Notes under the pieces: model-generated
What the model saw: only the letters and a program-made list of their open reading frames with translations
Told to the model about the DNA's origin: nothing
Databases searched by the model: none
Assembly (NCBI GenBank): GCA_004017535.1
Contig: SAJS01000003.1
Coordinates: forward strand, 62,001 to 126,000
DNA from: Mesorhizobium sp.
GTDB lineage: Bacteria > Pseudomonadota > Alphaproteobacteria > Rhizobiales > Rhizobiaceae
Reading direction: 5' to 3'
DNA: 64,000 nt
Made by a program: the position numbers and the translations under genes
Part shown: in pieces, positions 8,987-31,894 of the stretch
Position numbering within the stretch: the stretch's first letter is position 1
How the letters are laid out: each line of letters starts with the position of its first letter

Positions 8987-9682
8987 CTATCCCTTAAACT
9001 CCTTCGCCAGCAGATAAAGCTCCACCGACTCATCCCTCGAAGCCGGCGGCTTCACGTGATGGACCGAACGGAAATTCTGCTTCAGCAGCGACAAGAGTTC
9101 GTTCTCGGCGCCACCCTGAAATGTCTTGGCGAGGAAATGCCCGCCGGGTTTTAGCACGTGCAACGCGAAATCGGCCGCGACTTCGCACAGATGCATGGTC
9201 CGCAGATGATCCGTGCGGCGGTGGCCGGTCGTCGGTGCTGCCATATCGGACAACACCACGTCCGGCTGGCCGCCGAGCGCCTCGGCCAGCTTCTGCGGCG
9301 CGTCCGGATCGAGGAAGTCCATCTGCAGGATGATGGCGCCCGGAACCGCATCCATCTCGAGATAGTCGATGCCGACGACATGGGGATTCTCGGCGCTCGA
9401 CTTCGTCCGCGCGGCTGCCACCTGGCACCAGCCGCCGGGAGCGGCGCCAAGGTCGATGACTTTCATGCCGGGCTTCAGCAGATGGTGCTTGTCGTCAATC
9501 TCGATCAGCTTGTAGGCGGCGCGGGAGCGGTAGCCGTCGGCCTTGGAGCGCTGCACATAAGGATCGTTCATGTGGCGCTCGAGCCAGCGGCGCGACGACT
9601 CCTTCAGGCCGCTCTTCTTCTTGATCCTAGTCTTGAGGACGCGCAGGCTGGCTGAGCCCGGCTTTTCGGGTTTCTTGCCCAT
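8987..9682 (-). CDS. rlmE: 23S rRNA (uridine-2'-O)-methyltransferase RlmE/FtsJ
   Basis: Methylates the 2'-OH of U2552 of 23S rRNA using SAM. The 231-residue product has the SAM site [14 protein letters not shown] at about residues 77-90. The K-D-K-E tetrad is visible: Lys in [16 protein letters not shown], Asp in [11 protein letters not shown], Lys in FLAKTFQGG and Glu in [13 protein letters not shown]. It starts at the ATG overlapping the ppx stop codon by one base (GTG at 9685 is an alternative). It is co-transcribed with ppx, a common alphaproteobacterial pairing. Confidence 0.95.
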
Positions 9683-11067
9683 CACCGGCCACGTCCATCA
9701 TTTCGCCAGACGCCATCGTCGGCCATCAATTCACTCAGGATCCCCTCGCGCAGGCCGCGGTCGGCGACCCGCAGCCGCTCGGATGGCCACACACCGCGGA
9801 TCGCCTCCAGGATGGCGCAGCCGGCGAGAACGAGATCGGCGCGGTCTGCGCCAATGCAGGGGTTGGCGCAACGCTGCTGGAAATCCCAGCCGATCAGCCG
9901 CTCGATCATCCGATCGACGCTGTCGCGGTCCATCCATAGCCCGTCGACGCGGCGGCGGTCGTAGCGCTCGAGATCGAGATGCACGCCGGCGAGCGTCGTC
10001 ACCGTGCCGGAGGTGCCAAGCAGATGGAAGTTGGGGCTGGCCAGAACATGCGCGAGCCGATCGCGGCCGTCAAAAGCCTTCAGCCGCGCGGCCACATCGT
10101 CGACCATCGCGGCAAAGGTCTCGCGCGTCACGGTGCGGCCGCCGAAGCGTTCGGCAAGCGAGACGACGCCGACGGGCAGCGACGTCCAGGACACGATGTG
10201 ATTGGCCAGACGTGGCGAGCGCCGTCCGGTCAGGTCGATCAGCGCGATTTCGGACGAGCCGCCGCCGATGTCGAACAGCACCACGCCCTGCGTGTCGCGC
10301 TCGACCAGCGAGCCGCAGCCGGAAACGGCAAGGCGGGCCTCGGTCTGGCGGTCGATGATCTCGAGCTTCAGCCCGGCCTCGCGCTCGACGCGATCCAGGA
10401 ACTCGACGCCGTTGGCGGCCGAGCGGCAGGCCTCGGTGGCAATCAGCCTGGCTTTCCTGATCTTGCGGCTGCGCAGCTTCTCGCCGCAGACCTTCAGCGC
10501 CTCGACGGCGCGGTCCATCGCGGCCTGGCCGAGCCGGCCGCTGGCCGTCAGCCCCTCACCCAGCCTGACGATGCGCGAGAAAGCGTCGATGACGCGGAAT
10601 TGGCCGTGACGGCCAGGCACCGCGACCAGCAACCGGCAATTGTTGGTGCCGAGGTCGAGCGCGGCGAAGACAGGCAATTCCTGCTGGGGCGGACGTGGCG
10701 AAGGCTGGAGCGGCGGCCTTCGCTCGGCCTGCAAGGGCGGCACCTGAGGCTGGCTTGCCGTCGTGCTGGCAGGCGCGGCATTGGGCACGGCGCCGTTCTC
10801 GTCACGCGCGAACACCTTGCGGCCGCGCTTGCGCTTGCGGCGCTTGCGCGTCTTGCCTTTCGGCTGATCGCCATGCTGGTCTGCTTGACCGGCGCCAGTC
10901 TGTCTCTGGCCGGCAGGTTTGGGGCCGGCATGTCTTGGGTCGGCATGTCTTTGGTGCGCACCCGCGTGGCGGCTGAATCGCGCCGGTTGCGGGCCTCCCG
11001 ACTGCGCCGGCGATGCCCCGGACATGCCCACTGCCGACGCGCCCGCGCCGGTATCGTGGTCTTCCAC
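9682..11067 (-). CDS. ppx: Ppx/GppA family exopolyphosphatase/pppGpp phosphatase
   Basis: Hydrolyses inorganic polyphosphate and/or pppGpp. The actin-like phosphatase core begins near residue 132 with [14 protein letters not shown], continues through [12 protein letters not shown] and the phosphate-binding [14 protein letters not shown], and ends in [10 protein letters not shown]. The GTG start has AAGGA seven bases upstream. The first 130 residues are odd: Pro/Gln/Gly-rich and disordered-looking, with a dense basic run near residues 71-85 ([13 protein letters not shown]). Core length is about 330 residues, normal for the family, so the tail is an addition. Confidence 0.9.
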
Positions 11068-16976: not shown

Positions 16977-18032
16977 TTGCCTTTCCTGCCCGCTGCCGCG
17001 AACGCTCTTCCAGATCACCTGAACCCGGCCACCGCCGGGCGCGGGCACCCTGCCCTGACCACGATCTCGGCCGGCATCATGCCAGGATTGGTGCTGGTGG
17101 CGATGATCACCAGCGTCGCCTACTCGGCACGCGGCTTCTCCGGTTTGTTCAGCCCGATGATCCTCGCCGTCGTCGCCGGCATGATCTTTTCCAACGTGCT
17201 CGGCCGGCCCGCGCACGCCAAGGCCGGCATTGCGTTTTCGCAAAAACGCCTGCTGCGCTTCGCCATCGTGCTGCTCGGCTTCCAGCTCACGCTCGGCCAG
17301 GTGGCGGGCATCGGCCTTGGCGGTGTCGGCATCGTCGCGGCCACGCTCGGCGCCACCTTCCTGTTCACCGTCACGCTTGGACGGCTGATCGGCGTCGACC
17401 GGAAGCTGGCGCAGCTCATCGCCGCCGGCACCTCGATCTGCGGCGCTTCGGCGATCGTCGCCACCAACATCGTCACCAACGCGCGCGACGAGGACGTCAC
17501 CTATGCGGTCGCCGCGATCACGCTGTTCGGCACCATCGCCATGCTCGGCTTCCCGCTGCTGGCGCCGATCTTCGGCCTCGACCAGCACGCTTTCGGCCTG
17601 TGGGCGGGCGCCTCGATCCACGAGGTAGCGCAGGTGATCGGCGCCGGCTTCCAGAACGGCACGCTTGCTGGCGAGACCGCGACCGTTGCCAAGCTGACGC
17701 GCGTCGCCATGCTGGCGCCGATGGTCATTGCGCTCGGCCTGATGGCGCGCCGCGGCAGCTCCGACGCTTCCGGCGCCAAGCCGCCGCTGCCCTGTTTCGT
17801 CGCGGCCTTCGTTGCGGTGGTGGCGCTGAACAGCCTGGTTACGATCCCGGCGCAGATCCATTCGGCGATCGCCTTGGCCGCGCAGATCATGCTGACCATG
17901 GGCCTCGCCGCCATGGGCCTGCAGGCCGATATTTCGGAGCTGCGCTCGCGCGGACTGCGGCCGCTGATGCTGGCCTTCTCGGCCTTCCTCTTCATCGGCT
18001 GCTTCAGCCTGGTGCTGGTGAAGCTCGTCTGA
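16977..18032 (+). CDS. YeiH/UPF0324 family membrane protein (putative sulfate exporter family)
   Basis: A 351-residue protein with about ten transmembrane helices. The family signature is clear: [48 protein letters not shown] and [14 protein letters not shown]. The start is TTG, chosen because GGAGA lies eight bases upstream and the next ATG would shorten the conserved N-terminus. The family is annotated as putative sulfate exporters, but direct evidence is thin. It stands alone. Confidence 0.88.
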
Positions 18033-18070
18033 GGCAGGCCGAGACCGCCCTGGTCTAATCCCGCTATCCC

Positions 18071-18580
18071 CTAGTCCTCGTCATCCTCCTCGAACTCGCA
18101 CGCCGCGACATAGATCGCGGCGAGCTTCTCGATACCGGCCTGATCCTCCTTGTCGAAGCGGCCCGGCAGCGGGCTGTCGAGGTCGAGCACGCCGAACGCG
18201 CCGTCGGCGTCGCGCAACAGCACCACCAGCTCGGAGCGCGAATCGGCATCGCAGGCGATGTGGCCGGGAAATTCGTTCACGTCCTTGACCAGCATCGACA
18301 TGTCGAGCTCGATCGCGGTGCCGCAGACGCCCTTGCCGACGGCGATGCGCACGCAAGCGGGCTTGCCTTGGAAGGGCCCGAGCACCAGCTCGCCCTCGGA
18401 GGCGAGGAAATAGAAGCCGGCCCAATTGAGGTCGGGCACCATCTGGTAGATCAGCGCCGCCGTGTTGGCGGCGTTGGCGACGGAATCGCCCTCGCCTTCC
18501 AGCAACGCTTTCAATTGCGTGGCCAACTCCTTGTAGAAGGCCGGCTTGTCCTTGGTGTCGATGACGGTTGCCGCGAACAT
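18071..18580 (-). CDS. msrC: GAF-domain free methionine-(R)-sulfoxide reductase
   Basis: Reduces free Met-R-sulfoxide with thioredoxin, an oxidative-stress repair step. The 169-residue single GAF domain has the fRMsr hallmarks NWAGFYFL, LGPFQGKPACVRI, GKGVCGTA and HIACDADSRSELV, including the three cysteines used in catalysis. The acidic tail CEFEEDDED is unusual but common in related rhizobia. It is divergent from the Nudix gene. Confidence 0.92.
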   Translation of the reverse strand: MFAATVIDTKDKPAFYKELATQLKALLEGEGDSVANAANTAALIYQMVPDLNWAGFYFLASEGELVLGPFQGKPACVRIAVGKGVCGTAIELDMSMLVKDVNEFPGHIACDADSRSELVVLLRDADGAFGVLDLDSPLPGRFDKEDQAGIEKLAAIYVAACEFEEDDED

Positions 18581-18693
18581 TCGTATTGTCTCTCCGTTGC
18601 AAGCCGGCCGCGTGGCCAGCTACAGTTCACCTCTCTGCCACCAAAACCGCCGCCGGGAAACAGCCTGTCGTGACCTCCAGCCATTCCAGAACA

Positions 18694-19098
18694 GTGACGG
18701 CCAGGACGATCCGCATCGCCGCTGCCGTGATCCGTGACGATGGCGGCAGGCTGCTGCTGGTGCGCAAGCGCGGCACAAAAGCCTTCATGCAGGCCGGCGG
18801 CAAGATCGAGCCGGGTGAGTTGCCGGCCGCAGCCCTGGCGCGCGAATTGCGCGAGGAGCTGGGCATCGTCGTCGATCCGGGCGCTGCCTCACATCTCGGT
18901 TTGTTTTCGGCGCCCGCCGCCAACGAGCCGGACGCCCGTGTCGAGGCCGAGCTTTTCGAGCTTTCCATCACACACGAGCCGATCCCGGCGGCGGAGATTG
19001 AGGAGATGATCTGGCTTAACCCGGCACTGGCGAGCGGCATGGACCTGGCGCCGCTGACCGCCGATATCGTCCTGCCGCGTTACGGCCGCCAGCCATGA
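18694..19098 (+). CDS. Nudix hydrolase
   Basis: A 134-residue (d)NTP or nucleoside-diphosphate-linked pyrophosphatase. The Nudix box GGKIEPGELPAAALARELRE then ELGI is intact at about residues 36-58. The start is GTG (18694, alternative GTG at 18670); no ATG fits. It overlaps the GlxA-type regulator by four bases (ATGA), so they are co-translated. The substrate is unknown; MutT-like sanitising is possible. Confidence 0.87.
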   Translation: MTARTIRIAAAVIRDDGGRLLLVRKRGTKAFMQAGGKIEPGELPAAALARELREELGIVVDPGAASHLGLFSAPAANEPDARVEAELFELSITHEPIPAAEIEEMIWLNPALASGMDLAPLTADIVLPRYGRQP

Positions 19099-20072
19099 GT
19101 TTGCGGAGCCAGACAAAGCAGGCGGCGAACGACGCGCCCCTCACCTTCGCGGTGCTGGTCTTTCCTGGCTTTCCGATGATGGCGTTTTCGTCCGTTATCG
19201 AGCCGCTGCGCGCCGTCAACATTCTTGCCAAGCGCGACTGCTACCGCTGGGTCATCGTCGGCGCCGATCCGGGCACGGTCGAAGCCTCCAACGGCGTCGT
19301 CATCCAGCCCGGCTTTTGCGCGACGGACGCGCCGAAGGTCGACCGCATCGTGGTGTGCTCCGGCGGCGATGCCGACCACGTCGTGGCCGACGAGGCGATG
19401 AATTGGATCCGCAAGAGCCTACGTGGCGGCGCGCATATCGGCGCTGTCGCGGACGCCGCCTTCTTCCTCGCCCGCGCCGGCCTGCTCGACGGCCATGCCT
19501 GCACCTTGCACTGGACCAGCCAGCCCGCCTTCACCGAGGCTTTCCCGGATATCGAGCTTCGGCGCGATCTTTTCGTCATCGACCGCAAGCGTTTCACCTC
19601 GGCCGGCGGCGTCGGCAGCCTCGACATGATGCTCGAGATCATCACGCGCGACTGTGGCGCCGAGCTCGCGGCGGGTGTCGCCGAATGGTTCGTGCACAGT
19701 CCACTGCGCTCCAGCGTCGACCGCAAGCTGATGCCGCTCAGGCTGCGCACCGGGGTGCAGAACGAGCTGGTTCTATCGGCCATCGCCATCATGGAGGATG
19801 CGGTCGAGGAGCGACTTGGGATGGCCGAGCTGGCGGAGCGGCTCGGCGTGTCGCCCGACAAGCTCGAGCGCAATTTCCGCGCCGAGCTGGATATCTCGCC
19901 CAACGGCTACTACCGGCGGCTCAGGCTGAAGCGGGCGGCCGACCTCTTGGCGCATTCGACGCTGATGGTGCGCGATGTCGCGCTGGCCTGCGGGTTTGCG
20001 TCGATGTCCAGTTTTGCCCGGGCGTTTCGCGAGGAGCATGGGCACGCGCCGAAGGCAATCCGAAGGCAGTAG
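19095..20072 (+). CDS. GlxA-type transcriptional regulator (DJ-1/PfpI + AraC HTH)
   Basis: A 325-residue regulator. Residues about 15-195 form a DJ-1/PfpI-like sensor ([25 protein letters not shown]), and residues about 225-320 the double AraC helix-turn-helix ending in [21 protein letters not shown]. Relatives control use of quaternary amines (GbdR, CdhR), which makes it the likely controller of the downstream hydrolase cluster. It is coupled to the Nudix gene, which looks incidental. The 319 nt after it hold a palindromic repeat and no gene. Confidence 0.9.
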
Positions 20073-20093
20073 GGTGCAGTGCGCGCTGGCGCG

Positions 20094-20291
20094 ATGAGAC
20101 GCTGGCGGGACAGCGCCCCCTCTGGCCTGCCGGCCATCTCCCCCACTTGGGGTCCACTTGGGGGGGAGATTGGCAGCCTCGGCGCCGCGCCCTTGTTGCA
20201 ACGTCGGCAATTGACGAAGCCCTGCGCGACATCTGATCTCCCCCCTCGTGGGGGAGATGTCCGGCAGGACAGAGGGGGGCGCGAAGGATCG
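20094..20291. repeat. Intergenic palindromic repeat, type B copy 1
   Basis: Two arms face each other: 20094-20171 (GAGACGCTGGCGGGACAGCG, then C-rich, CTGGCCTGCCGGCCATCTCC) and 20230-20291 (ATCTCCCCCCTCGTGGGGG, then AGATGTCCGGCAGGACAGAG and GGGGGGCGCGAAGGATCGC). The inner cores are inverted repeats of each other. Arm 1 has a local duplication of CCACTTGGGG. A second copy with the arm order swapped lies at 23365-23542. This resembles REP/RIME-like mosaic elements of rhizobia. Confidence 0.8.
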
Positions 20292-20391
20292 CTACACTGC
20301 CCATGCCTGCGGCATCCGGCACAACAAGCGCGGAATGCCGCACAAGCTCAAAACCCTGGCCGGCTATGGTCTCCGCAACAGGAGACCTCTG

Positions 20392-21690
20392 ATGAGCATC
20401 GTCGTATTCGATCCCGACAGCACCGAGGATGTGGACTTCAAGGACCGCATGCGCCATCCGGTGGCGGCGGATCCCGCCGGCGGTATGTGGCTGTCCGATA
20501 CCGAGCCATCCTTCATCGATGCGGACGCGCTGCGTAAGGGACGCCTTACCAAGCTACGCGCATGGATGCGCGAGGCGGGTTACGGCGGCGTCGTGCTGTT
20601 CGATCCCTATAACCAGCGCTACGCCACCGGCTCGCGCAACATGTTCGGCTATTTCCTGCGCAACTCGACCCGCTACTTCTTCATCCCCACCGAAGGGCCG
20701 ATCGTGCTCTTCGAATATCCGCAGAGCTACCATGTCTCGATGGTGCTCGACACGATCGACGAGGCGCGGCCGTCCAAGCTGGTCTGGTCATCCGTCTCCG
20801 GCCGCGACGACGAAACCGCCGGCCCTTTCGCCGACGAGATCACCGAGCTTCTGAAAAAGCATGGCGGCGGCTCGATGAAGCTGGGGCTCGACCGCTGCAG
20901 CCATCTGCAGGCGCTGGCGCTCGAAAGGCGCGGCTGCGAGGTGAAGGACTGCCAGGGCGAGATTTTGGCCGTGCGCGCGGTGAAGACGCCAGAGGAAGTG
21001 AAGTGCCTGCAAGCATCGATGGCCGGCGCCGAAGCCGCGGTGGCGGCGGTGCGCGAGGCGATCAAGCCGGGCGTTTCCGAAAACGAGCTGTTCGCCATCA
21101 TGTATCACGAGGTGATCCGTCAGGGCGGCGAGTTCATCGAGACCCGGCTGCTGACATCCGGACAGCGCACCAATCCGTGGTTCAATGAGGCGAGCGGGCG
21201 CAAGATCAGGCCGGGCGAGCTGGTCGCGCTCGATACCGACACGATCGGCTGCTACGGCTATTATTCCGACTTCTCGCGCACTTTCCGCTGCGGCCCCGGC
21301 AAGCCCACCCCGTATCAGAAATCGCTCTACCGCATGGCGCACGACCAGGTGCAGCACAATATCGGCATCGTGAAGCCCGGCATGGCTTTCCGCGAGATCG
21401 CCGAGAAGGCCTGGAAAATCCCCGACCGCTTCGTCGACCAGCGCTACACATCGGTTATGCACGGCGTCGGCATGCATGGCGAGACGCCCTTCATCGCACA
21501 CGCGATGGACTATGAGACCTACGGCCGTGACGGCATCATGGTGCCGGGGATGGTGGTCAGCGTGGAAAGCTATATCGGCGAGAAAGGCGGCCGGGAAGGC
21601 GTCAAGCTCGAGGACGAGATTCTCATCACCGAGACCGGGACGGAGCTGCTCTCGCGGTTTCCTTATGAAGACGAATTTCTTGACAAGTAG
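20392..21690 (+). CDS. DddP-like M24 family enzyme
   Basis: A 432-residue pita-bread-fold protein related to DMSP lyase DddP rather than to ordinary aminopeptidases. Shared segments are YGGVVLFDPYNQRYATGS and GGEFIETRLLTSGQRTNPWF. Metal ligands are present: D281, D293, H357, E392 and E407; D283 is also kept. These align without gaps to DddP D295, D307, H371, E406, E421 and D297. The residue equal to DddP D377, reported there as catalytic base, is G363. The ATG has AGGAG seven bases upstream. It leads three enzyme genes with short gaps. Substrate unknown; creatinase-like or C-N/C-S cleaving chemistry is possible. Confidence 0.82.
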   Translation: MSIVVFDPDSTEDVDFKDRMRHPVAADPAGGMWLSDTEPSFIDADALRKGRLTKLRAWMREAGYGGVVLFDPYNQRYATGSRNMFGYFLRNSTRYFFIPTEGPIVLFEYPQSYHVSMVLDTIDEARPSKLVWSSVSGRDDETAGPFADEITELLKKHGGGSMKLGLDRCSHLQALALERRGCEVKDCQGEILAVRAVKTPEEVKCLQASMAGAEAAVAAVREAIKPGVSENELFAIMYHEVIRQGGEFIETRLLTSGQRTNPWFNEASGRKIRPGELVALDTDTIGCYGYYSDFSRTFRCGPGKPTPYQKSLYRMAHDQVQHNIGIVKPGMAFREIAEKAWKIPDRFVDQRYTSVMHGVGMHGETPFIAHAMDYETYGRDGIMVPGMVVSVESYIGEKGGREGVKLEDEILITETGTELLSRFPYEDEFLDK

Positions 21691-21717
21691 CGCCCACGTA
21701 CCGACAGCACATTGCGC

Positions 21718-22395
21718 ATGAAAACGCCCATTTCCATCCGACGCGGCACGGTGGCCGCGGTGTTCATCGATCTCCAGGAGGAGCATCGCAAGGACAAGCG
21801 CTATCTGGTCGAGGGGTTTGCCGACATCCTCGCCAATGTGCAGCGCCTGCAGGAGGCGGCGCGCCGCAATTTCGTGCCGCTTTACCATTGGGCCTATATC
21901 GTCGACCTCGCCGAGGCGCGGCCGTTCCACCCTGTGGACGAAAGCGGCAAGTCGGCCTTCTCCGACAAGGACGATCCGCTGACGGCGATCTGCCATGAAG
22001 TGGCGCCGCAAAACGGCGAGGCCATGCTGGTCAAGCAGCAAGCCAGCGCCTTCGGCAAGAACGATTTCGGCGACAAGCTCAAGGCATCCGGCATCGAGTG
22101 GCTGGTGATTGCCGGCGTCTGGACCGAGGCCTGCATCGACGCCACGGTGAAGGACGCGGTGGCCCGCGGCTTCCGCGTGCTGCTGGTCAAGGATGCATGC
22201 GGCAGCGCAAGTGCGGCCATGCACCAGACCGGCATCCTCAACCTCGCCAACCGCCTCTATGGCGGCGCCGTCACCAACACGCTCGACGCGTGCCGGCTGA
22301 TGGCCGGCGACACGGTCAATGTCTGGCAGGTCGAGGGCTCGGTACCGCTGCGCTTCACCTTCGAGAACGCGGCGCAGCTCTACGCCGAGCTTTGA
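21718..22395 (+). CDS. Isochorismatase-fold cysteine hydrolase
   Basis: A 225-residue enzyme of the cysteine hydrolase superfamily that includes N-carbamoylsarcosine amidase and nicotinamidase. The triad is visible: Asp in AAVFIDLQEEH (D18), Lys in EAMLVKQQASAF and Cys in GVWTEACIDATVKDA. The typical cis-peptide segment VIAGVWTEACID is intact. The ATG at 21718 is preferred over TTG at 21712. It lies 27 nt after the DddP-like gene and 5 nt before the alpha/beta hydrolase, so it acts in the same pathway. Amide or carbamoyl substrate likely. Confidence 0.85.
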   Translation: MKTPISIRRGTVAAVFIDLQEEHRKDKRYLVEGFADILANVQRLQEAARRNFVPLYHWAYIVDLAEARPFHPVDESGKSAFSDKDDPLTAICHEVAPQNGEAMLVKQQASAFGKNDFGDKLKASGIEWLVIAGVWTEACIDATVKDAVARGFRVLLVKDACGSASAAMHQTGILNLANRLYGGAVTNTLDACRLMAGDTVNVWQVEGSVPLRFTFENAAQLYAEL

Positions 22396-22400
22396 CGTCG

Positions 22401-23441
22401 ATGGCCAGCAACCCGAGCAATCCGGCAGGCCGCGGCAAATATGCCAACCGGCTCGATCCGGAGCTCTGGGACTATATCGACAAGGTCAACAGCTGGTACC
22501 CGCCGGAGATCGCTGCAGCACCGATCGCCGACCAGCGTGCGGTCTACAACCGGATGTGCATCGCGTTTCACCAAGGACACCCTGAAGGTGTGACCACCAG
22601 TGACGGCATCGTCGCTACGGCGGCGCATGCGATCCCGGTCCGCCGCTATCGCATGGAGGGTAAGCCGGCGGCGATCGTCGTCTATTATCACGGCGGCGGT
22701 TTTGTCCTGGGCGATCTCGCCAGCCATGACGACATCTGCGCCGAAATCTGCGCCGGCACGGGATTCGAGGTGGTCTCGGCCGACTACCGGCTGGCGCCGG
22801 AATATCTGCATCCGGCTTCCTTCGACGACGCGCTGGCCGTGTTCGACTGGGTCGCCGCGACCAGCGCGCTGCCGATCGTGCTGTGCGGTGAAAGCGCCGG
22901 CGGCAATCTCGCCGCTGCGGTGGCGCAGGCGACGCGGCGTCATGCGCGGCACGCGATCGGGCAGGTGCTGATCTATCCTGGCCTTGGCGGCGACGAGACC
23001 GGGCGGTCATACATCGAACATGCCGAAGCGCCGCTGCTGACGCTCGCCGACATCGAGTTCTACCGGCGCGTCCGATCCGCGCCTGGTCAGTCGCTCGACG
23101 ACCCGACCTTCTCGCCGCTCAGGGACCGCGACTTCTCCGGCCTGCCGCCGACTGTGATCGTCACCGCCGAGTGCGACCCGCTGTCGTCGGACGGCGAGAC
23201 CTATCGCGACCGGATTGTTGCCGCCGGCGGACAAGCGTGGTGGCGCGAGGAGAAGCGGCTGGTGCACAGCTTTCTGCGGGCGCGTTCCGCGGTGCCAAAG
23301 GCTGCGGAGGCGTTTGCGCGGATCATCGAAGACATCGCAAGGCTGGGCGCAGACGGTCGAACGCTAATCTCCCCCCAAGTGGGGGAGATGGCCGGCAGGC
23401 CAGAGGGGGGCGCGAAGGATCGCGGCCTCTCAGTGCCGTAG
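22401..23441 (+). CDS. Alpha/beta hydrolase, HSL type, with repeat-derived C-terminus
   Basis: A 346-residue esterase/lipase-like enzyme. The oxyanion motif is [11 protein letters not shown], the nucleophile serine is in [14 protein letters not shown], the acid in [11 protein letters not shown] and the histidine in RLVHSFLRA. The first ATG after the preceding stop is used. The family fold ends near [13 protein letters not shown]. The last 24 residues ([20 protein letters not shown] and on) are encoded by the type B repeat that begins at 23365, so the natural stop was replaced by repeat sequence. It is third in the putative catabolic operon. Confidence 0.87.
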
Positions 23442-23542
23442 CGTCCAAGATTGCCTCAAAAAGTCATCGCAACCAGCTGAGACGCTGGCGGAACAGCGCC
23501 CCCCTCTGCCCTGCCGGGCATTTCCCCACAAGGGGATAGATT
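23365..23542. repeat. Intergenic palindromic repeat, type B copy 2
   Basis: Contains the same two arms as 20094-20291 in swapped order: 23365-23423 matches arm 2 (ends GGGGCGCGAAGGATCGC) and 23477-23542 matches arm 1 (GAGACGCTGGCGGAACAGCG onward). The first arm overlaps the 3' end of the alpha/beta hydrolase gene. The 262-nt gap to the next gene is otherwise empty. Confidence 0.8.
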
Positions 23543-23703
23543 GGCTGTATCCCCTGCGGAACAGCGCACAAGAACTGCGGAAAAGCAAACACTTCGCCGC
23601 GGAAAGCGGACCTATCATTCCTCAGCAAGCAACGGCGCCTCGGCGGTTGCATCCGCCCCCGAGCATGGCGATCCCCGGGCGCCCAACAACAGAGGGAACG
23701 ACA

Positions 23704-25344
23704 ATGAAATTCATGCTGACCGACAGGAAACTGCACCCGCGCGCCAAGCCGATCGCCGACGATTTCAGGAAGGGCGCGATCAGCCGGCGCGAATATCTGG
23801 CGCTGATGGCCGGCTTCGGCGTCAGCGCCGCCGGCGCGATGGCGCTGGGCGGGATTGTCCTCTCGCCTGCCCGCGCCGCCGAGCCGAAAAAGGGCGGCGT
23901 TTTGCGCGTCGCCATGAACGTCAAAGGGTTCAAGGATCCGCGCACCTTCGACGGCGTCGAGATGTCGAATGTCGCGCGCCAGTGCAACGAATATCTGGTG
24001 CGCTGGAACACCGATTTTTCTTTCGAACCCTGGCTCTTGGAAAGCTGGGAGACCAGCGACGATGCCAGGACGATCACGCTTCACGTGCGCAAGGGCATCA
24101 CCTGGTCGAATGGCGACACTTTCAACGCCGACGACGTGATCCACAATCTCGACCGCTGGTGCGACGCGTCCGTCGCCGGCAACTCGGTCGCGGCGCGCAT
24201 GGGCGCGCTGGTCAATGCCGACACCAAGAAGCCGGTCGATGGCGGCATACAGAAGGTCGACGACTACACGGTCAAACTCAACCTGCCCAAGCCCGACATT
24301 TCGCTGATCGCCGGCATGGCCGATTATCCGGCGCTGATCATGCACCGCTCCTATGAAGGCGACGCCGATCCCAAGAAGGCGCTGGCCATCACCACCGGCC
24401 CATGCGAGCTGGTGAGCTGGGATGCCGAGACCGGCGCCGAGGTGAAGCGCAAGGACAAGCCCTGGTGGAAGGGCGAGTTCCATCTCGACGGCATCAAATG
24501 GGTCGACTACGGCTCCGACCCCAACGCCACGCTGTCGGCCTTCGAATCCGGCGAGATCGACACCGACCACGAAACCGCGTCGGACGCCGTGTCGCAGACC
24601 GACAAGATGGGCCTGCAGAACTCCGAGATCGCCACCGGCTCGACCATCGTCGCGCGCTTCAATGTCTCCAACGCGCCCTATGACGACGTCAAGGTGCGCC
24701 GCGCCGCCCAGCTTGCCGTCGACAATGCGGCCGTGCTGAAGCTCGGCCTCGACGGGCGTGGAAAACCCGCCGACAACCACCATGTCGGCCCGATGCATCC
24801 GGAATTCGCCGATATCGGCCCGGCCAAACGCGATGTCGAACAGGCTAAGAAGCTGATCGCCGAAGCCGGCAAGGCCGACCATGAATATGAGCTGATCTCG
24901 GTCGACATCGAATGGCAAAAAAGCACCGCGGACGCGATCGCGGCGCAGATCCGCGAGGCGGGCCTCAAGATCAAGCGGACCGTGCTGCCGGCCGCGACCT
25001 TCTGGAACGACTGGAGCAAGTTCCCCTATTCCTGCACTGAATGGCTCGGCCGCCCGCTCGGCGTCCAGGTGCTGGCCTTGGCCTACAAATCGGGCGCGGC
25101 CTGGAACGAAAGCGCCTATTCGAACAAGGAGTTCGACGAGCTTCTCGACAAGGCGCTTGCGACGCCGGACGCCGCTACGCGCAAGGAGATCATGGCCAAG
25201 ATCGAGACCAATTTGCGCGACTCCGGCATCATCATCCAGCCCTACTGGCGCTCGGTCTACCGCACCTATCGCAAGGGCGTGCAGGGCTGCGAACAGCACC
25301 AGTCGCTCGAGCAGCATTTCGAGAAAGTCTGGCTGGAGTCCTGA
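23704..25344 (+). CDS. Tat-exported ABC solute-binding protein (peptide/opine type, SBP_bac_5)
   Basis: A 546-residue periplasmic binding protein for an oligopeptide-like or other organic ligand. It has a twin-arginine signal ([14 protein letters not shown], residues 27-40, preceded by a long n-region; cleavage near ARAAEP). The family signature follows in [19 protein letters not shown], with [18 protein letters not shown] later. GAGGGA precedes the ATG. No permease or ATPase gene follows, so it is an orphan that must share a distant transporter. Its position after the hydrolase cluster suggests it supplies that pathway's substrate. Confidence 0.88.
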
Positions 25345-30881: not shown

Positions 30882-31894
30882 CGCTCGCCGCCGGCACCGA
30901 TGCGGTGCGCCAGTCGCTGGCGAGTTTCCGCCAGGAGCGCGAGGCCGACTGGAAAGCCTTCGAGGCGCTGCTGGCGCGCGTCGAGAGGCGCGCGCCGCGC
31001 GCTCTGTCGGAAGACGAGCTGCTGTCGCTGCCGCTGCTCTACCGCTCGGCGCTGTCCTCGCTTTCGGTGGCGCGCGCGACCTCGCTCGACAGCGCGCTGA
31101 TCGCCTATCTCGAGGCGCTGTGCCTGCGCGGCTATTTCTATCTCTATGGCGCGCGACGCTCCTTGCGGACGCGCATCGGCGATTTCTTCCTGCACGACTG
31201 GCCGGCGGCGATCCGCGATCTGTGGCGCGAAGTGTGGGCGTCGGTCGCCCTCACGGTGATCGGCGCGATCGCCGGCTATTGGCTGGTCGCCTCCGACAAG
31301 CGCTGGTACGACGCCATCATCGCGCCGAGACTGGCGGGCGGGCGCAACCCGGATTCTTCGGCCGAGGTGCTGCGCAGCGTGCTTTACGGCGGCGGCGACC
31401 ATTTCCTGTCCGGCTTTGCCGCCTATCTCTTCACCCACAACACCCAGGTCTCGATCCTGGCCTTCGCGCTGGGCTTCGCCTTCGCGGTGCCCAGCGTGCT
31501 GATCATCCTGATGAATGGTTGCATGCTCGGCGCCATTTTCCAGATCTATGCTGCCAAAGGGCTCGGCTTCGAGCTCGGCGGCTGGCTTTCGATCCACGGC
31601 ACGACGGAGCTGTTCGCCATCGCCATCGCGGGCGCGGCCGGCATGCGCATCGGCACCAGCATCGCCTTTCCCGGCGAACTGACCCGCATGGCCGCTGCCG
31701 CCCGGGCCGGTCAGGTGGCGGCGACCGCCATGATCGGCGTCACGGTGATGTTGCTTTTCGCTGGACTGTTGGAAGGCATCGGAAGGCAGACGATCACCAG
31801 CGACGTTGTCCGCTATTCGATCGGCGGCGGCATGCTGGCTTTCTGGATCTGCTATTTCTACCTGTTCCGGATGGTGCGCCATGGCGACCGCTAG
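30878..31894 (+). CDS. SpoIIM/DUF95 family membrane protein
   Basis: A 338-residue protein: a helical soluble N-terminus of about 100 residues, then around five membrane helices with the SpoIIM-type core FAFAVPSVLIILMNGCMLGA and the charged loop GLGFELGGWLSIHGTTELFA. It has a strong AAGGAGG ribosome-binding site. The name comes from sporulation, but this lineage does not sporulate; the family occurs in MoxR operons. Function unknown. Confidence 0.85.
   Translation: MTLAAGTDAVRQSLASFRQEREADWKAFEALLARVERRAPRALSEDELLSLPLLYRSALSSLSVARATSLDSALIAYLEALCLRGYFYLYGARRSLRTRIGDFFLHDWPAAIRDLWREVWASVALTVIGAIAGYWLVASDKRWYDAIIAPRLAGGRNPDSSAEVLRSVLYGGGDHFLSGFAAYLFTHNTQVSILAFALGFAFAVPSVLIILMNGCMLGAIFQIYAAKGLGFELGGWLSIHGTTELFAIAIAGAAGMRIGTSIAFPGELTRMAAAARAGQVAATAMIGVTVMLLFAGLLEGIGRQTITSDVVRYSIGGGMLAFWICYFYLFRMVRHGDR

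Follow-up and report, generated by a model that had tools for sequence, protein, structure and literature searches.

A conserved rhizobial gene cluster around a DddP-like M24 enzyme, a candidate locus for catabolism of a betaine-type compound

Closest described systems

The described systems that most resemble the locus considered here are the dimethylsulfoniopropionate (DMSP) lyase DddP, the ectoine hydrolase DoeA/EutD (an M24 enzyme in compatible-solute catabolism), the choline/betaine regulator GbdR, N-carbamoylsarcosine amidohydrolase and the MttB-family demethylation of glycine betaine. Creatinase is an M24-fold enzyme that lacks the metal ligands. In one report on DddP, Asp295 and Asp297 are metal ligands, Tyr366 and Asp377 are stated to be invariant, and Asp377 is the favoured catalytic base (PMC4108388). 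MttB-type demethylation of glycine betaine, with MtgB and Bmt/MtgE, has been described together with a colocalized gene set in Sinorhizobium meliloti (PMC12478193). The present analysis concerns five genes on the forward strand, at positions 19095–25344 of a 64,000 nt stretch of Mesorhizobium sp. DNA (contig SAJS01000003.1; this whole stretch is referred to as the window).

The five genes encode, in order, a GlxA-type regulator (glxA), a DddP-like M24 enzyme, an isochorismatase-fold hydrolase (iso), an HSL-type hydrolase and a family-5 solute-binding protein (SBP) (Table 1). The reading that we favour, with a probability of about 0.5, is that the cluster mediates regulated catabolism of a betaine-type (quaternary-ammonium) compound, probably in conjugated or amide form. 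A literature search, judged from listings, found no published description of this gene set, which a preliminary description of the window had also failed to recognize as a known pathway.

Conservation of the gene set

A genome scan matched 155 relatives, from which 80 named loci were kept, nearly all of them from Mesorhizobium; the nearest by M24 identity (99%) belong to Mesorhizobium atlanticum, M. plurifarium and other Mesorhizobium. All five genes occur in order in 51 of the 65 named loci with enough flanking sequence, and their co-occurrence is therefore beyond chance. The preliminary description had proposed a single catabolic locus that absence of the set from other genomes would refute; the set is conserved in rhizobia. 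Among the remaining 14 loci, 11 lack the SBP nearby and three lack the HSL gene. The gap between the M24 and iso genes ranges from approximately 0 to approximately 450 nt across the named loci.

Of the 37 genomes sampled from the window's genus, 33, the window's own among them, carry a near-identical M24 (at least 93%; in G019 in two pieces), and none was found in the other four (G003, G006, G013 and G024). In the wider family, an M24 of at least 79% identity occurred in 13 of 247 sampled genomes, representing six genera. Fifteen regions were fetched, of which 11 hold all five genes; glxA is missing from L045, the HSL gene from L047 and the SBP gene from L051 and L054. The set is rearranged in other genera, with the HSL and SBP genes moved or turned (L043, L045 and L049) and different outer genes. 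These 15 regions, a Shinella plasmid region (L135) and L164–L173 make up class A, 26 chosen regions with the M24–isochorismatase core.

The loss of the HSL or SBP gene near 14 loci, and the changes of place or strand of these two genes, would suit genes that are co-located without a common pathway. The M24 and iso genes, however, are paired in all 26 class A regions and in 79 of the 80 named loci (L114, the one without iso, lies at a contig end), in surroundings that otherwise differ, and simple co-location is improbable.

The M24 enzyme

DddP is the best match of the window M24 enzyme both in the PDB (4rzy and 4b28, 246 bits) and among NCBIfam models, where the curated DddP equivalog NF043017 gives 314.8 bits, short of its cut-off of 600. 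Four relatives from the same subfamily score 286–320 bits with this model, and a DddP-like paralogue in the window's own genome scores 456 bits. The dinuclear metal-ligand positions are kept, with D281, D283, D293, H357, E392 and E407 aligning with DddP; beyond the two aspartates named above, the assignment of the remaining DddP ligands to these residues is our assumption. Tyr366 of DddP corresponds to Tyr352. Asp377, by contrast, is replaced by Gly363, which in the subfamily alignment is preceded by His362 and followed by Glu. Glycine occupies this position in all 53 sequences that cover it (the window, 25 of class A and 27 of a second group, class B, described below); the M24 of L164 does not cover the position and lies outside the 53. 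At the same position, 20 aligned M24 paralogues carry Asp in nine cases and Gly within another motif in nine, the other two being remote. In L164, the M24 match (9142–10239) stops at residue 345 of 432, and this is possibly a broken copy.

With a score of 314.8 bits against 600 and Asp377 replaced by Gly, identity of the M24 enzyme as a DMSP lyase was rejected. A DMSP or sulfonium lyase locus, which the likeness to DddP might suggest, is very improbable, as the partners of the enzyme in the window are hydrolases (in relatives also betaine genes), and an amidase and an esterase have no obvious role in DMSP cleavage. The sulfonium substrate considered in the preliminary description is likewise unsupported, because the enzyme lacks the proposed base of DddP and scores far below the DddP cut-off. 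Ectoine hydrolase was also rejected, the window M24 reaching only 58 and 27 bits with the DoeA and EutD models (cut-offs 575 and 613).

In six of eight loci compared from other genera, M24 identity is 93–95% (86% in L042 and 79% in L043) at a synonymous divergence (dS) of 0.6–1.3. The ratio of non-synonymous to synonymous divergence (dN/dS) of M24 is the lowest of the gene set in all 11 class A comparisons, narrowly so in L043, with ranges of 0.014–0.154 for M24, 0.098–0.336 for iso and 0.143–0.578 for the HSL gene. From this we infer that, within class A, the M24 enzyme may carry out a fixed central reaction while the peripheral hydrolases change faster. Compared with two class B genes, M24 dN/dS is approximately 0.3.

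Betaine-type neighbours in relatives

The best curated model for the window regulator, in which Pfam identifies GlxA-type domains, is GbdR. At 281.8 bits it falls below the cut-off of 480, and the predicted protein is a relative of GbdR and, by the curated model, no GbdR itself.

In class A (n=26), iso is present in 26 regions, glxA in 25, the HSL gene in 20 and the family-5 SBP gene in 13. Eleven regions carry an OsmF-type SBP gene together with permease and ATPase genes, eight an MttB gene and seven a gene for a dimethylglycine dehydrogenase (DMGDH)-like enzyme; enolase-family genes occur in nine, Ldh genes in seven and sarcosine oxidase genes in one. L045 and L049 have a betaine-type ATP-binding cassette (ABC) transporter (ProW-like permeases, a ProV-like ATPase and an OsmF-like SBP) between iso and the family-5 SBP, and an enolase-family gene after the HSL gene. 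The gene order on Sinorhizobium pSymA runs DMGDH-like, MttB, GlxA, M24, iso, permease, ATPase, permease, glycine betaine SBP, enolase family and Ldh family. S. meliloti 1021 has the locus, and the open reading frames (ORFs) of its unannotated record agree with this order. We take SMa1462 to lie within this pSymA M24 locus. In PMC3596328, SMa1462 is listed, as a gene for a glycine-betaine transporter, among genes with altered expression in nitrogen-regulation mutants. The Shinella plasmid has MttB–GlxA–M24–iso–permease–ATPase–permease–glycine betaine SBP, followed by genes for a second SBP, an alpha/beta hydrolase and sarcosine oxidase.

Proteins of solved structure related to the OsmF-type SBP are labelled as binding glycine betaine, carnitine, choline and ergothioneine, and engineered ones as sensors of acetylcholine, nicotine and serotonin. 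A search of 13 genomes, picked after their clusters had been seen, gave 22 OsmF-type matches in 10 genomes at E ≤ 1e-20. At least one such gene lies within 10 kb of the M24 gene in eight of the 13, each of these eight holding only two or three such genes. Two genomes of the window's genus (G000 and G004) have one remote match elsewhere, and G180, G272 and G675 have none. MttB genes numbered 0–10 per genome in these 13.

DddP-like paralogues also have MttB neighbours. In the fetched stretches of 15 such loci (37–47% identity), MttB and DMGDH-like genes are present in nine and Bmt in five; MttB is absent from four ordinary M24 loci of the window's own genome and from two remote M24 loci. This small control suggests that the association is a feature of DddP-like M24s, not one of M24s in general. 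Described MttB-family glycine betaine demethylation is resembled both by these paralogue loci and by the class A plasmid clusters of Sinorhizobium and Shinella, which carry MttB and a DMGDH-like enzyme; the window cluster differs in having isochorismatase- and HSL-type hydrolases and no MttB gene nearby. The main text of PMC12478193 does not contain the word 'peptidase'. One paralogue of the window's own genome (L057, C22:210000–229900; 43% identity) keeps the Asp; its neighbours are MttB, a DMGDH-like gene and what by eye resembles a gene for Bmt (betaine-homocysteine methyltransferase). In L224, L226 and L227, two DddP-like M24 genes surround a DMGDH-like gene. DMGDH-like genes also occur elsewhere in the Mesorhizobium genome.

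Several observations weigh against a betaine-type substrate. No OsmF-type, MttB or DMGDH-like genes occur at 79 of the 80 named loci (flanks of up to 10 kb on each side), only that of Shinella having them, and 15 of the 26 class A regions lack betaine genes, including all seven of the window's genus. The class A regions were picked by M24 match and include several near relatives (three Sinorhizobium plasmids and two genomes of one other genus). The window's own genome has seven MttB genes, none in the window and two near the DddP-like paralogue, at a distance of up to about 10 kb, and its only OsmF-type match is weak (35% identity) and outside the cluster. Six of the 15 paralogue loci lack MttB, and four of the nine that have it are from the window's genus. 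From the named loci and the seven class A regions it follows that the betaine setting belongs to other genera, Mesorhizobium having the core and the family-5 SBP. The lack of betaine genes at the named Mesorhizobium loci slightly weakens the betaine reading and slightly raises that of peptide or opine use, with which the family-5 SBP may be equally compatible.

Under peptide or opine use, the M24 enzyme would be an Xaa-Pro-type peptidase fed by a Dpp/Opp-type SBP, and the betaine neighbours of relatives would be incidental. The solved chains closest to the SBP are DppE and AgaA, the latter presumably an agropine binder; in L043 DppB- and DppC-like permease genes and two Dpp/Opp ATPase domains come after the SBP gene; and most PDB matches of the M24 enzyme are called peptidases. 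The M24 enzyme is nevertheless far nearer DddP than prolidases or aminopeptidases, whose best chain gives 78.5 bits, and the betaine ABC and MttB genes recur beside M24 in other genera. We regard peptide or opine use as unlikely. The SBP has a twin-arginine stretch, with RRE[YF] kept in all 12 orthologues shown. It had been described as a protein exported by the twin-arginine route without permeases; none follows it directly among the ORFs of the window listed to about position 31000, judged by eye without a library scan, yet the lack is not inherent to the system, as L043 demonstrates.

The enolase-superfamily neighbour of a Sinorhizobium-like genome (L169:1962–3086) matches 2pgw best among solved structures, with 756 bits over 372 residues; this entry is labelled muconate cycloisomerase, which names no betaine; as a guide to the substrate it was rejected, and its betaine ABC and MttB context suggests another role.

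A second setting of the M24 subfamily

In order- and phylum-wide searches, other families yielded M24 homologues with 59–66% identity. At E ≤ 1e-125 there were matches in 17 of 397 genomes (order-wide) and 14 of 398 (phylum-wide), window-type sequences included, and the distant M24 is common in two families, being present in 52 of 151 genomes of one and in 7 of 12 of the other. Class B comprises 27 regions fetched around these more distant homologues (L157–L163 and L200–L219; M24 identity 57–67%), with one or two members scanned per neighbour family.

In 26 of the 27 regions, a gene for a HalD-like 2-oxoglutarate oxygenase directly precedes M24 on the same strand. LysR genes are present in 24, CN-hydrolase genes in 11, OsmF-type SBP genes in 11 and the associated ATPase gene in 10, and no match to iso, glxA or HSL passes the thresholds in any of the 27. 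This setting is an uncharacterized oxidative context of the same M24 subfamily. A CoA-acylating methylmalonate-semialdehyde dehydrogenase (MMSDH) gene follows M24 in nine regions, and would suit the malonate-semialdehyde product of the DMSP cleavage judged very improbable above. Relatives of the family-5 SBP occur in L162 (41%) and L217 (36%), and L160 has an MttB-family gene, 39% identical to that of the panel and below threshold. L164, of class A, also has 2-oxoglutarate oxygenase and LysR genes.

The CN-hydrolases bear on a creatine or ureido route, in which M24 and iso would act like creatinase and N-carbamoylsarcosine amidase, yielding sarcosine or some other N-methyl amino acid. For the one class B CN-hydrolase scanned, N-carbamoylputrescine amidase is the second-best model; sarcosine oxidase genes adjoin the Shinella cluster; and in the PDB iso matches N-carbamoylsarcosine amidohydrolase (1nba) best, the two sharing the isochorismatase fold and aligned Asp, Lys and Cys residues. 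The residues concerned (D18, K106 and C139), which we take to be the catalytic triad, are invariant in 19 aligned sequences. This match is weak, however, at 54 bits; the best creatinase chain gives the M24 enzyme 40.1 bits; and the M24 enzyme keeps its metal-ligand positions, unlike creatinase. Such a route has little probability, and the creatine-like substrate that had been considered for the locus is weakly supported at most. With the curated BiuH (53 bits) and RutB (39 bits) models, iso also scores far below the cut-offs. The HSL-type hydrolase gives 226.7 bits of the 350 needed for the LipP1 model, and its HGGG and G[ED]SAG motifs are kept in all 20 relatives.

Proposed function

In the favoured reading, catabolism of a betaine-type compound, the GbdR-like GlxA regulator would sense the compound and a binding protein (family 5 here, an OsmF-type betaine ABC in some relatives) would bring it in. 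The isochorismatase-fold and HSL-type hydrolases could open amide, ureido or ester bonds, and the M24 metal enzyme, acting otherwise than as a DMSP lyase, would make the central and most conserved cut. The N-methylated product could then be processed by MttB-type demethylation, by a DMGDH-like enzyme and by sarcosine oxidase, a step borrowed from relatives; Shinella has genes for these final demethylation steps next to the cluster, and Sinorhizobium has part of them there. Of the substrates suggested in the preliminary description, a betaine is favoured by the genes that some other genera have for a betaine ABC, MttB, a DMGDH-like enzyme and, in one case, sarcosine oxidase, but by no such gene at the 79 named loci outside Shinella.

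A wider, two-part proposal is put forward tentatively and is, as a whole, doubtful; the lack of betaine genes at the named Mesorhizobium loci makes it slightly less likely still. The 'HGVGMHGETP' M24 would be an unrecognized quaternary-amine enzyme found in two classes of the phylum and in two settings (GlxA, isochorismatase and HSL; or LysR and 2-oxoglutarate oxygenase, with CN-hydrolase or MMSDH in at least a third), and DddP-like M24s at large would work alongside MttB/DMGDH N-demethylation, the DMSP lyase DddP having arisen from among them.

If the favoured reading is correct, nodulating rhizobia would have an added catabolic route for betaine-type nitrogen compounds, given the M24 enzyme in 33 of 37 genomes of the window's genus and the cluster on Sinorhizobium pSymA. 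It would also caution against taking a DddP-like annotation for a DMSP lyase without a check of Asp377. The presence of the locus in S. meliloti 1021 makes its function directly testable.

Layout of the locus and minor observations

The genes originally described, and the gaps of 27 nt between M24 and iso and 5 nt between iso and HSL, were borne out by ORF coordinates and Pfam (Table 1). The glxA–M24 and HSL–SBP gaps are wider, at 319 and 262 nt. A promoter scan at the locus gave one promoter-like site against 1.1 expected from shuffles, which is chance level.

Table 1. Genes of the cluster, with positions in the window
Feature	Position	Strand	Basis
GlxA/AraC-type regulator (DJ-1/PfpI + HTH_18)	19095..20072	+	Pfam
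DddP-like M24 enzyme, probably dinuclear-metal, 'HGVGMHGETP' subfamily	20392..21690	+	Pfam M24 + Creatinase_N
Isochorismatase-fold cysteine hydrolase (probable amidase)	21718..22395	+	Pfam PF00857 Isochorismatase
HSL-type alpha/beta hydrolase	22401..23441	+	Pfam PF07859 Abhydrolase_3; HGGG + GESAG motifs
Family-5 SBP, twin-arginine signal	23704..25344	+	Pfam PF00496 SBP_bac_5

Both wide gaps contain copies of a palindromic intergenic repeat, which thus flanks the M24, iso and HSL genes; the paired copies lie at 20095–20292 and 23364–23527, with arms of 32–37 nt that are 89–91% complementary, and a pattern search for the repeat gave three matches. The repeat was rejected as the cause of long M24–iso gaps, being present in only eight of 45 gaps of at least 200 nt (allowing up to five substitutions) and in none of 34 shorter gaps. 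The second repeat copy accounts for approximately the final 26 codons of the HSL ORF, and the original gene may therefore have ended earlier than the called stop.

In L169, genes for an encapsulin shell and a DyP-type peroxidase lie near the cluster (17193–19071), and the same gene clusters are present in L168, the two genomes belonging to one genus.

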